This document shows positions 1 through 64,000 of a DNA stretch of 64,000 bases, one piece after another. The DNA is from Lacihabitans soyangensis (GTDB lineage Bacteria; Bacteroidota; Bacteroidia; Cytophagales; Spirosomataceae). The notes beneath the pieces are model-generated. The model searched no databases. It was not told the DNA's origin and saw nothing but the letters and a program-made list of their open reading frames with translations. Position 1 is the first letter of the stretch. Each line of letters begins with the position of its first letter. The translations under genes and the position numbers were made by a program. Where the stretch lies: contig NZ_RJUF01000015.1 in the NCBI RefSeq assembly GCF_024343775.1, positions 1 to 64,000 on the forward strand, given 5' to 3'.

Positions 1-303
1 ACCGTCCAGGTGCCCTCGCCTGCTACAGTTACGGTAGTTGCTGGTACGGTCGGGTTTGCAGGGTCTAACAAGGTCACCGTAGTGGGGTCTACCGTATCGC
101 CACCTGTATCGTTGGTCGTTACAGGTGCTGACACAAACCCTGGCACTGGCGTGAAGGTCACCGCTCCTGTCGTCGGGTTCACCGTCCAGGTGCCCTCGCC
201 TGCTACAGTTACGGTAGTTGCTGGTACGGTCGGGTTTGCAGGGTCTAACAAGGTCACCGTAGTGGGGTCTACCGTATCGCCACCTGTATCGTTGGTCGTT
301 ACA
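1..303 (-). repeat. 180-bp tandem coding repeats in the surface protein
   Basis: Positions 1-123 are identical to 181-303, which gives a period of 180 bp (60 codons). The unit encodes NDTGGDTVDPTTVTLLDPAN and then the VAGEGTW / VTFTPVPGFV core. The repeat is clearly richer in G and C than the adjoining part of the same gene. The array continues off the left edge, so the copy number cannot be read here. Confidence 0.9.
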
Positions 304-61395: not shown

Positions 61396-61923
61396 ATGAA
61401 AAAAGCCCTGAATATTATCTTTATTGTGGTTGGCGTATTGGTTTTGGCACTTTTTGGTGTTCGTTATTATACCAAAAGCCACAGTCCGTTCGAAAAACTA
61501 ACTGCCAAAGGCAGCAGAGACCTGAAAGTTGAACTCGGCTATTGTAGACCATTGATGAAAGGCAGAAAGATTTTCGGAGAACTCATTCCTTATAATACTG
61601 TTTGGCGTACAGGTGCCAACGAGGCCACCACCATCAGTTTTTCTAGAACCTGTAGCTTTGGCAAAAGAAAAGTTAAAGACGGCAAATATAGCCTTTGGAC
61701 CGTTCCAGGTGAACGTTACTGGACAATTATACTCAATACAGAAACAGGGCAGTGGGGTACCAACTACGACGAAAGTAAGGATTATTTGAGATTCAAAATA
61801 GAAGCTGAAAAAACTGTGGAACCAACCGAACAACTCACTATAAAACTAAATCAAGTAGCCGACAATGGAATTGACATGACATTAAACTGGGAAAACACTC
61901 AGTTGAATATTCCAATCAGATAA
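61396..61923 (+). CDS. DUF2911 protein
   Basis: An N-terminal membrane anchor (IIFIVVGVLVLALFGVRYYT) leads to the DUF2911 domain: KVELGYCRPLMKGRKIFGEL, VWRTGANEATTISFS, GKYSLWTVPGERYWTIILN and TGQWGTNYDESKD. The family has no known activity. It has its own terminator and lies 86 bp after comEC. Confidence 0.9.
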   Translation: MKKALNIIFIVVGVLVLALFGVRYYTKSHSPFEKLTAKGSRDLKVELGYCRPLMKGRKIFGELIPYNTVWRTGANEATTISFSRTCSFGKRKVKDGKYSLWTVPGERYWTIILNTETGQWGTNYDESKDYLRFKIEAEKTVEPTEQLTIKLNQVADNGIDMTLNWENTQLNIPIR

Positions 61924-62065: not shown

Positions 62066-62256
62066 ATAATTGCTTTTTATAAAAAGCAATTATATAATAT
62101 TTTTGCTTATTTTATAAAGCATTTTTAATAAATAATTGCTTAATTTAAAAAGCAAAATAAACCTTTTAAAAATTCCATATTTGAAATACTATATGTATTT
62201 TTGCTTTTTACAGAAAGCAATTTAATGTCTATTTTGCTTTTCTTAGAAAGCAAAAT
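62066..62256. repeat. Phased array of five TTGCTTT...AAAGCAA palindromes
   Basis: Five dyads of one family lie upstream of the ATPase start: 62066-62093 (a perfect 28-bp palindrome), 62104-62121, 62136-62155, 62201-62220 and 62231-62256. Their centres fall at 62079.5, 62112.5, 62145.5, 62210.5 and 62243.5, that is intervals of 33, 33, 65 and 33 bp. A degenerate dyad (ATTCC...GAAAT) at 62172-62187 fills the place of the missing copy. The arms are TTGCTT(T)/(A)AAGCAA; the middles differ. The arrangement suggests cooperative binding of a dimeric protein on successive helical turns. Confidence 0.9.
62196..62236 (+). promoter_or_regulatory. -7 promoter-like boxes embedded in the palindrome array
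   Basis: TATTTTTG at 62196-62203 fits TAnnTTTG exactly and its last bases are the TTG of the fourth palindrome. TATTTTTG also occurs at 62098-62105, entering the second palindrome, and TATTTTG at 62230-62236, entering the fifth. A protein bound to a palindrome would thus cover a promoter element. No good -33 partner is visible, so the true start site is not fixed. Confidence 0.45.
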
Positions 62257-62273
62257 TAATAACAGATAACAAA

Positions 62274-63467
62274 ATGGACTTTCTATATCAAAATCACCAA
62301 AAAACAATAACCAAACTTAAAACCGAGTTTAGGAGGGATTTTATTGACCAAATAGATTGGGATGAACGAATGATTGCCATCAAAGGAGCCAGAGGTGTTG
62401 GTAAAACTACTTTGATGCTGCAGTACATAAAAGAAACACATAAGACGGCCAATCAAGCACTTTTTGTGAGCATGGACGATATACAAGTTTCAGGACTATC
62501 TATTTGGGAAATAGCCGAATACCACTATAACCAAGGCGGAACGCATTTATACATAGACGAAATACACAAATATGACAACTGGAGCATCGAACTAAAAAAC
62601 ATTTATGACAGACTTGGCGGACTGTCAGTGTGTTTTTCTTCATCTTCAATACTACAGGTGTATAAAGGCTACGCCGACCTTAGTAGACGTGTGGTTAGTT
62701 ACCAGCTACATGGACTGTCGCTGCGAGAATACATTCAAATAGAAACAAAGACTAGGTTTGAGAAATACACATTTCAAGAAATTTCAAAAAACCACGTAGA
62801 AATTTCAACACAAATTATTGAGCGAATCAAGCCACTGGCGTATTTTAATGAGTACCTCAAAATGGGCTATTTCCCATTTTATTTACAAAGCAAAAAAAGC
62901 TATTATCAAAAACTGACCACTATTTTAGGAGTAACTTTGGAGGTGGATTTACCTTATATTTTGGACATCAACATCCACAATGTTGGTAAACTCAAAAGAC
63001 TCATAAAAGTAATAGCTGGTGCTGTACCATTTCAGCCGAATATATCCAAACTCGCTGAAAGTGTTGACCTTACAAGAAATACGCTGACGCAGTATTTGTA
63101 TTATTTGGAGCAAGCCGAAATCATAAATTTATTGACGGTAAACACAAAATCGTACTCCCATCTTACAAAACCTGAGAAAATATTTTTGCAAAATCCTAAC
63201 CTTGCACATGCTATTAATTGGGAAACAGTAAACAGAGGAACTTTGAGAGAATTATTCTTTCTCAACCAATTAAAAACGACACAACAGGTCAATTTTACAA
63301 AAATTGGGGATTTTTTGGTTAACGAAAAATATATATTTGAGATAGGAGGTTCTACGAAGACATTCGCTCAAATTGCCGACATTGAAGATTCCTATCTGGC
63401 CGTTGACGAGATAGAAATTGGACATAAAAACAAAATACCTCTTTGGCTCTTTGGTTTTTTGTATTGA
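62274..63467 (+). CDS. AAA ATPase with DUF4143-type C-terminus and probable winged helix
   Basis: Walker A is GARGVGKTT near residue 38 and Walker B is HLYIDEIHKYDNW near residue 90. Residues 120-250 form the rest of the AAA fold, including SLREYIQIE. A helix-turn-helix-like block (ISKLAESVDLTRNTLTQYLY, then YLEQAEIINLL) lies near 262-294. It is followed by the DUF4143 nuclease-like fold (GTLRELFFLNQL, YIFEIGGSTKTF). It may bind the palindromes directly in front of it. Related ATPases are common and of unknown function in this phylum, often in variable genome regions. Confidence 0.85.
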   Translation: MDFLYQNHQKTITKLKTEFRRDFIDQIDWDERMIAIKGARGVGKTTLMLQYIKETHKTANQALFVSMDDIQVSGLSIWEIAEYHYNQGGTHLYIDEIHKYDNWSIELKNIYDRLGGLSVCFSSSSILQVYKGYADLSRRVVSYQLHGLSLREYIQIETKTRFEKYTFQEISKNHVEISTQIIERIKPLAYFNEYLKMGYFPFYLQSKKSYYQKLTTILGVTLEVDLPYILDINIHNVGKLKRLIKVIAGAVPFQPNISKLAESVDLTRNTLTQYLYYLEQAEIINLLTVNTKSYSHLTKPEKIFLQNPNLAHAINWETVNRGTLRELFFLNQLKTTQQVNFTKIGDFLVNEKYIFEIGGSTKTFAQIADIEDSYLAVDEIEIGHKNKIPLWLFGFLY

Positions 63468-63470
63468 CAA

Positions 63471-64000
63471 TCAATAGACTATCTTCGCAACTTCTCTCGT
63501 TTTATCTAACAAATGAATGAGTTTATTACTATCTGCAAGTGACCAATTAGGGCTTTCCGTCAGCCCTTTTCTGAGACATTCATTCGCCTCTTCGATTTCA
63601 TAATTGTATCCAAAAGTATCTCTCGGGAATTCCAGTGTCTCCAACTCTTCTCCCTCTGAACCAAAGAAAGTTAAACGAGTGGCTTCGTGAAATCTACCAT
63701 GCATTTCAATAGAGCCCTTACTTCCATAAATACGTGCTTCACAATCGGTATAGGCTCCAACTGTACAATTTAGCAATGCCGTTGCCTGATTGTCATATTG
63801 ATAGATAAATGAAGTAGTCTCATCTGTTCCAGTAGGAGCAAATATACTTGCGGCCATTATTTTGGAAGGATATCCCAACAAAAACAGAGACAAAAATGCA
63901 GGATAAATACCGATATCTAAAAATGCCCCACCTCCCAATTCAGGATTAAATAGACGAGATTTTTCATCATAAACGGCCTGAAAACCAAAATCAGCAGCAA
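63471..64000 (-). CDS. Gfo/Idh/MocA-family oxidoreductase, N-terminal part beyond the right edge
   Basis: The minus-strand frame is open from position 64000 and has no start in the window; the TTG at 63938 is internal. Visible are DFGFQAVYDEKSRLFNPE, then LGGGAFLDIGIYPAFLSLFL, a segment characteristic of the C-terminal (substrate-binding) domain of this family, and ARIYGSKGSIEMHGRF. The NAD-binding Rossmann half lies outside. It probably oxidises or reduces a sugar-like substrate. Its stop is 3 bp past the stop of the convergent ATPase gene. Confidence 0.85.
   Translation of the reverse strand, partial: AADFGFQAVYDEKSRLFNPELGGGAFLDIGIYPAFLSLFLLGYPSKIMAASIFAPTGTDETTSFIYQYDNQATALLNCTVGAYTDCEARIYGSKGSIEMHGRFHEATRLTFFGSEGEELETLEFPRDTFGYNYEIEEANECLRKGLTESPNWSLADSNKLIHLLDKTREVAKIVY

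Follow-up and report, generated by a model that had tools for sequence, protein, structure and literature searches.

The palindrome array and the downstream ATPase gene

The window analyzed here is a stretch of 64,000 nucleotides from the genome of Lacihabitans soyangensis (contig NZ_RJUF01000015.1, positions 1 to 64,000, forward strand). Near its end, an array of palindromes, referred to below as dyads, lies between a DUF2911 gene and a gene for an ATPase with AAA_14 and DUF4143 domains, directly 5' of the latter. The array and the ATPase that very probably reads it are the subject of this report, and the features of the locus are as follows (bp, base pairs; aa, amino acids).

62066..62256, no strand: dyad array, five dyads on a 32/33-bp phase (approximately three helical turns), with an empty or degenerate phase position separating dyads 3 and 4
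62070..62089, no strand: dyad 1, TTGCTT-N8-AAGCAA, within a perfect 28-bp palindrome at 62066-62093
62103..62122, no strand: dyad 2, with one mismatch
62136..62155, no strand: dyad 3
62201..62220, no strand: dyad 4
62234..62253, no strand: dyad 5, ending 20 bp ahead of the ATPase start codon
62274..63467, plus strand: 397-aa AAA_14 and DUF4143 ATPase (PADLOC PDC-S01)
61396..61923, plus strand: flanking DUF2911 gene
63471..63998, minus strand: flanking GFO/IDH/MocA oxidoreductase gene, extending past the window end

The dyad centres (62079.5, 62112.5, 62145.5, 62210.5 and 62243.5) are spaced by 33, 33, 65 and 33 bp, and the coordinates, running from 62066 to 62253, confirm the original prediction of five related palindromes at this spacing, the first of them perfect over 28 bp. 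The 33-bp period was also detected by Tandem Repeats Finder. A sixth, degenerate dyad that had been proposed did not survive inspection, as only a weak TTC..GAA dyad can be made out by eye near 62178, and this was too degenerate to be counted. The dyad-pair score of the array at lag 33 was 26/28, a value equalled in none of 60 dinucleotide shuffles, and the exact 20-mer dyad pattern occurs at five places in the 5.65-Mb genome, four of them within the array. Together, the shuffles and the genome pattern counts rule out a terminator or a chance AT-rich repeat, as the original prediction had argued. With one mismatch allowed (W-flanked pattern), 21 genome places were found, five in the array and 16 scattered. 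A reversed control pattern gave eight, and a second array of this dyad type is thus not evident in the genome. The fifth exact dyad stands isolated at L005:1501-1520 (contig C23:29558), with no array apparent around it. A CRISPR array was considered as well and rejected: in CRISPR arrays, unique spacers of some 30 bp separate repeats that are almost identical, and here the 28-nucleotide copies share 71-82% identity with the reference copy and 13 bp separate one 20-bp dyad from the next.

The ATPase carries an AAA_14 domain (PF13173, E 6.1e-24, 84.9 bits against a cut-off of 27) and a weak but above cut-off DUF4143 domain (PF13635, 30.2 bits against 28.1), and it matches seven PADLOC models of the phage-defence candidate PDC-S01 (best E 6.8e-25, judged by E value without a curated cut-off), whose AAA_14/DUF4143 proteins we take to be COG1373. 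No NCBIfam model came close to its cut-off, and no relative of solved structure was found by sequence at E ≤ 1. An AlphaFold2 model built on 25 relatives (predicted local distance difference test 89.6, predicted template modelling score 0.89) places a helix-turn-helix (HTH; residues 257-280) inside the core, with helices 257-263 and 268-280 followed by strands, which can be read as a winged helix. The predicted core fold is nearest to that of STAND/NLR ATPases, the structural matches being 2qen (Z 15.5, root-mean-square deviation 3.6, 252 residues aligned), 2fna (15.3, 4.4, 263), CED-4 4m9s (15.1, 5.3, 272) and RPP1 7crc (14.6, 4.2, 250); these top matches, at Z 14-15.5, suggest an NBD-HD1-winged-helix core, and the list speaks hardly at all for the C-terminal domain. 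Foldseek alone returned mostly generic AAA+ matches. Two parts of the protein are referred to repeatedly below.

63066..63092, plus strand: residues 265-273, covering the turn and the N-terminal portion of the recognition helix (AlphaFold2 helix 268-280) in the predicted winged helix, the best predictor of the dyad bases
63234..63464, plus strand: residues 321-397, PD-(D/E)XK-like C-terminal domain (E326, D346, E356; G358 at the canonical lysine place; K362)

The C-terminal domain presumably belongs to the PD-(D/E)XK superfamily. In its pattern of E326, D346 and E356 it resembles these enzymes, and the assignment also rests on the accessible portion of PMC12988326. Across 243 proteins, the columns of this nuclease-like domain are strongly conserved (D346 0.95, E356 0.96, G at 358 0.96, K362 0.95). 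The canonical catalytic D...ExK of PD-(D/E)XK nucleases was not found, with G358 standing where the lysine is expected, and K362 might act as its stand-in.

Phased dyads at related loci

Matches to the ATPase at E ≤ 0.001 are present in nine of ten genomes of the genus (its own genome counted), and matches at E ≤ 1e-30 in 32 of 150 genomes of a family sample. Relatives were drawn from GTDB contigs as the best 80 of at least 301, and from two further, overlapping genome samples that contributed loci from 58 and 62 of 395 genomes; the family members compared here are best matches to the query and not a random draw. Removal of duplicates reduced the 268 loci with an open reading frame to 261, and 248 were kept that had a profile score above 250 and at least 150 bases upstream, with L012 (stop codon) and L132 (broken frame) excluded.

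Upstream of these 248 genes, the best of 39 lags was 33 in 108 loci and 32 in 54 (8.2 and 7.2, respectively, in shuffles), giving one or the other in 162 loci against 15.4 in shuffles. A caller using a TG...CA template found a dyad pair at 32/33 bp with a score of at least 25 in 165 of the 248 loci, where about 1.0 was expected, and with a score of at least 24 in 181, where 3.2 were expected. In the control regions upstream of 363 other genes from 139 sources (the family loci and the window), only three pairs reached 24 and two reached 25, with a maximum of 33. The orthologue upstream regions thus show the dyads and the period that the original prediction anticipated, at 165/248 loci against 2/363 other genes. 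A scan of the flanks gave six distinct places scoring at least 26, and the top one, with a score of 33, is very probably the same as the control maximum. This strongest flank array (L090:5861, TTGGTTA...TAACCAA) precedes a second, 398-aa ATPase on the other strand, which belongs to the same family by sequence; the array had therefore located a family member blind. In these comparisons, 32/33-bp-phased upstream dyads are a trait of the family.

Conservation within the array was assessed against the locus of a 93%-identical orthologue, which has a five-dyad layout like that of the window but a gene with a stop after 28 residues. Identity was 55/60 in the arms, 21/40 in the dyad middles, 55/80 in the linkers and 81/136 in the upstream spacer. 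Retention of the arms over middles, linkers and spacer points to selection on the arms, although the orthologue gene may be dead. Two loci are likely remnants: L012, an orthologue with an early stop yet five recognizable dyads, and L018, where the array is followed by only a C-terminal ATPase fragment.

In paralogues at about 40% identity, the dyads differ (GTATTT...AAATAC and TGCACT...AGTGCA are examples) at an unchanged period, and the three paralogues in this genome carry three different dyads. One of these, TTGTAT-N8-ATACAA, occurs at two places in the 5.65 Mb, both ahead of the paralogue in question. Among 28 same-genome paralogue pairs from 14 genomes, none shared a 4-bp core; as the background of 251/7273 pairs below 56% identity (3.5%) leads one to expect about one, this zero is not significant. 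In addition, the array and the gene come and go together at this one genomic site: in relatives G003, G007 and G009, the DUF2911 and oxidoreductase genes face each other over a short spacer and both array and ATPase are absent. In relative G008, the spacer between the two genes is longer and there is no ATPase.

Co-variation of the recognition helix with the dyad bases

Of 249 loci, 131 passed the dyad score, and of these 31 odd-centred ones were left out and 100 even-centred ones kept. The half site in these 100 loci reads (A/T)-T-T-G followed by four variable bases, with conservation of 0.87 for T at -8.5 and 0.80 for G at -7.5. The inner four bases occur in 42 versions among 124 loci, while the spacing and the TTG...CAA frame stay constant. 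A set of 78 even-centred loci with TG or CG at a fixed place and a long enough protein was used for several of the comparisons that follow. Successive dyads in this set are spaced by 33 bp in 85 of 126 cases and by 32 bp in 29, the centre of the last dyad lies a median of 15 bp ahead of the start codon, and only two dyads were called in 46 of the loci.

All 389 nine-residue windows of the ATPase were scanned, with no region chosen beforehand, for prediction of the four inner dyad bases after removal of overall identity. The top windows in the 78 loci (2962 pairs below 65% identity) start at residues 265, 264, 267, 266, 263 and 262, at partial r values of up to 0.33 (standard deviation over windows 0.08). 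In a larger set of 81 proteins mutually less than 65% identical, window 265-273 was the best of the 389, with none of 2000 permutations as good, and among 50 proteins mutually less than 55% identical it was reached by three of 2000 permutations. By single columns, the highest pair was residue 272 with dyad position -6.5 (z 9.2), followed by residue 267 with -3.5 (7.8), and the highest means over the four dyad positions belonged to residue 267 and then residue 269.

Six helix residues predicted the dyad bases at 0.547 with proteins at least 50% identical excluded, compared with 0.474 for the whole protein, 0.395 for composition and 0.408 ± 0.028 for random sets of six (maximum 0.496 of 200). 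With the six-residue pattern tried at 389 positions of the protein, the eight best placements started between residues 260 and 270. Residue 268 was R in 75 and K in three of 78 loci having G at -7.5, and R in 12, N in seven and W in one of 20 loci lacking this G. The three loci with K268 (L196, L199, L200) have TCGG in the half site in place of TTG, and the N268 group, which is mostly Bacteroidales (L079, L085, L092, L099, L114, L116, L130), has dyads without the TTG frame, for example TTTTACAT...ATGTAAAA.

From this co-variation between the dyad bases and its recognition helix, we conclude that the dyads at the promoter of the ATPase gene are very probably read by the ATPase, which supports the role of reader that the original prediction had given to its winged-helix-like block. 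The dyads could instead be read by another DNA-binding protein of the host, with the ATPase gene as a mere target, since promoter dyads are usually read by dedicated repressors. We regard this as very unlikely, because the dyad sequence tracks the recognition helix of the ATPase across genomes, the three paralogues in one genome have three different dyads, and relatives without the ATPase at this site are also without the array.

Promoter register, proposed regulation and related systems

Two exact matches to TAnnTTTG, presumably the Bacteroidota -7 element, fall on two of the five dyads, in agreement with the box overlap claimed earlier.

62196..62203, plus strand: TAnnTTTG (-7-type) box, TTTG being the outer arm of dyad 4
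62098..62105, plus strand: second TAnnTTTG match, in equal register on dyad 2

The box at 62196-62203 is likely the promoter of the ATPase gene, and transcription would then start near the centre of dyad 4, at about 62210. The register is shared by the family, as TAnnTTTG begins 14.5 bp ahead of a dyad centre in 52 of the 78 loci (55 boxes), with TTTG forming the outer dyad arm, and the box-bearing dyad is the one nearest the start codon in 46 of these 52. A mirror-image box pointing away from the gene was found in six of the 78 loci, and it is this fixed register (52/78 against 6/78) that puts a candidate operator dyad over the gene's own promoter.

The position of the box also bears on whether the dyads are RNA hairpins in the transcript, degenerate mobile palindromes or CRISPR-like repeats, all of which would account for inverted repeats with a regular period. 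Where present, the -7 box is mostly on the dyad nearest the start codon (46/52), so that transcription from it would miss the dyads further upstream; in the window, the box on dyad 4 has three of the five dyads on its upstream side. In addition, the dyad middles diverge while the arms are kept, and the exact dyads tested are nearly limited to one genome place. We regard explanations of this kind as highly improbable, the hairpins being judged by the position of the -7 box, with no RNA fold or Rfam search made.

We consider it probable that the array serves as operator for the ATPase's own promoter, with the ATPase as its reader and most likely as a co-operative autorepressor. The array, its period, the registers, the co-variation and, at one site, the joint presence and absence of gene and array were computed; that the ATPase binds the dyads, forms dimers and acts co-operatively, and in which direction it regulates, is inferred, as is release by ATP state or an infection signal. 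In the proposed mechanism, a dimer of the ATPase would sit on each dyad by way of the winged helix of its NLR/STAND-like core, with the recognition helix (approximately residues 265-273) reading 4 bp within each TTG...CAA frame and Arg268 probably touching the conserved G. As 32/33 bp corresponds to about three turns of B-DNA, dimers on successive dyads would share a face of the DNA at intervals of three helical turns, and neighbours could touch. Since one dyad covers the -7 box, protein bound there would most likely stop RNA polymerase, giving a steep, co-operative autorepressor with a private sequence key, and the block might be released by ATP state or an infection signal. The self-regulating module of the original prediction is thus supported by the family-wide period and the co-variation, with the regulation itself suggested by the overlap with the -7 box; its other suggestion, a DNA-marking site, gained no specific support.

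The ATPase could also read the array as an activator or assembly platform, on which a phased oligomer recruits polymerase or holds the effector domain ready, as in MalT. The predicted fold is nearest to STAND/NLR ATPases, which work as oligomers, and a platform of this kind would be suited by the several dyads that precede the -7 box with a constant three turns between them. However, a dyad over the -7 box, as in 52/78 loci, is an unusual place for an activator, and only two dyads are called in 46/78 loci, so that activation appears unlikely and autoregulation, most likely by co-operative repression, is the best explanation.

Several observations weigh against autorepression by the ATPase through a phased array. 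The overlap with the -7 box fits repression but falls short of proof. No dyad pair was found even at a score of at least 24 in 67 of the 248 loci, including a cluster of genomes from one family (f18; L143, L144, L146, L147, L150, L151, L153) whose ATPases are without a 32/33-bp array. Members were selected as best query matches, the pair-caller template favours TG...CA, and the orthologue gene used to assess constraint may be dead owing to its early stop. When the first co-variation set was thinned to 35 proteins less than 55% identical, the top rank went to window 234-242, located in the first helix of the winged-helix region, and window 264-272 was significant as a pre-chosen window (1/5000) but not family-wise (1211/5000). 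Columns outside the helix score near the best value of 9.2 (I27 7.8, D135 7.7, D225 7.5, I229 7.3), and a second co-variation peak at residues 168-178 (window 62775-62807) lies outside the winged helix.

The residues of this second peak perhaps make a further DNA or dimer contact. The f18 loci share a TTGC...GCAA-like element 5' of the start codon.

The predicted core fold is like that of the STAND/NLR ATPases SSO1545, Pyrococcus 2qen, CED-4 and the plant NLRs. The winged helix of animal and plant NLRs is not known to be a sequence-specific DNA reader, whereas the one here co-varies with a promoter dyad. MalT is a STAND ATPase that binds several phased promoter sites, for which it has a separate LuxR-type HTH at the C terminus, and it acts as an activator of other genes. 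The present ATPase is similar in having several phased promoter sites that it is predicted to bind, but the sites are at its own promoter and there is no C-terminal LuxR-type HTH among its Pfam matches at E ≤ 0.001. Ordinary autorepressors likewise have a dyad over the core promoter that is, as appears to be the case here, read by the product; the difference lies in an AAA ATPase with a nuclease-like domain, a three-turn phase kept over great divergence, and a diversifying specificity. What appears to be new is a probable autoregulated operator whose predicted reader is the winged helix in an NLR-like ATPase, with the helical phase kept while the sequence diversifies.

The match of the ATPase to PDC-S01, with which it shares both Pfam domains as well as the seven models, connects this pairing to an abundant group. 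In the accessible portion of PMC12988326, PDC-S01 ranks fourth by frequency among the defence-type systems of prokaryotes, with 29,494 cases in bacteria and 9,986 in archaea, and its anti-phage action is described as not validated; in that of PMC13356809, no other single locus is more frequent in rumen genomes. According to the accessible portion of PMC4406477, a Thermus gene carrying motifs of AAA_14 and DUF4143 was 6.6-fold up with a plasmid in an Argonaute-bearing strain. No upstream array is mentioned in these portions of the three papers, self-reading is likewise absent from the two PDC-S01 accounts, and the accessible portions of the open-licence literature yielded no description of a reader-array pairing for DUF4143, COG1373, PDC-S01, PF13173/PF13635 or phased palindromes with AAA ATPases. 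The pairing provides a handle on PDC-S01, as each protein would come with a candidate DNA ligand and a promoter that can be followed, and its specificity code is predicted to reside in a few residues. It further points to sequence-specific reading of DNA by the winged helix of an NLR-like ATPase, and many natural repressor-operator pairs become available as candidates. More speculatively, and with a low probability in our estimation, PDC-S01 proteins could be a family of self-addressed, NLR-like switches, each assembling on a private phased array at its own promoter, in which the array-bound assembly is the sensor and an invader that occupies the array, or any other disturbance of it, would release or induce the ATPase and its nuclease-like domain.

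Relatives of the ATPase at E ≤ 1e-5 occur in just one of 50,697 phage records, which weighs against a phage origin of the locus, and relatives at E ≤ 1e-10 occur in 28 of 72,556 plasmid records. For three of the 20 plasmid matches listed, the best lag was 33 (Runella), 32 (Persicobacter) and 34 (Aliarcobacter, Campylobacterota). Of six other DUF4143 ATPases tested in this genome, four (L278-L281) have 32-bp upstream repeats and two (L282, L284) have none. With L281 as the query, annotated regions were obtained from 12 of the 59 plasmid matches listed, covering Bacteroidota, Actinomycetota, Chlamydiota, Pseudomonadota, Bacillota and Fusobacteriota; the best direct-repeat lag was 32, 33, 64 or 66 in ten of these loci, and 32 or 33 was the second-best lag in the remaining two. 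With L278 as the query, which reached more distant plasmid loci (ten of the 60 matches listed), the repeat was found in two, from Treponema and the archaeal Methanomethylovorans, and not in the other eight, including two Thermus loci. Over all 53 distant loci (L320, L321, L322 and L329 were without a usable start, and L283, L285 and L286 were left out), the 32/33-type lag count was 20.9 against 5.0 expected. The 32/33-bp trait is thus common, but not universal, among DUF4143 ATPases. In the same 53 loci, a further DUF4143 branch favours about 22 bp (6.6 against 1.3 expected), and dyad repeats at this spacing, two helical turns and not three, lie upstream of L310, L314, L315 and L324, for example GTGGAT...ATCCAC and TTACTCA...TGAGTAA.
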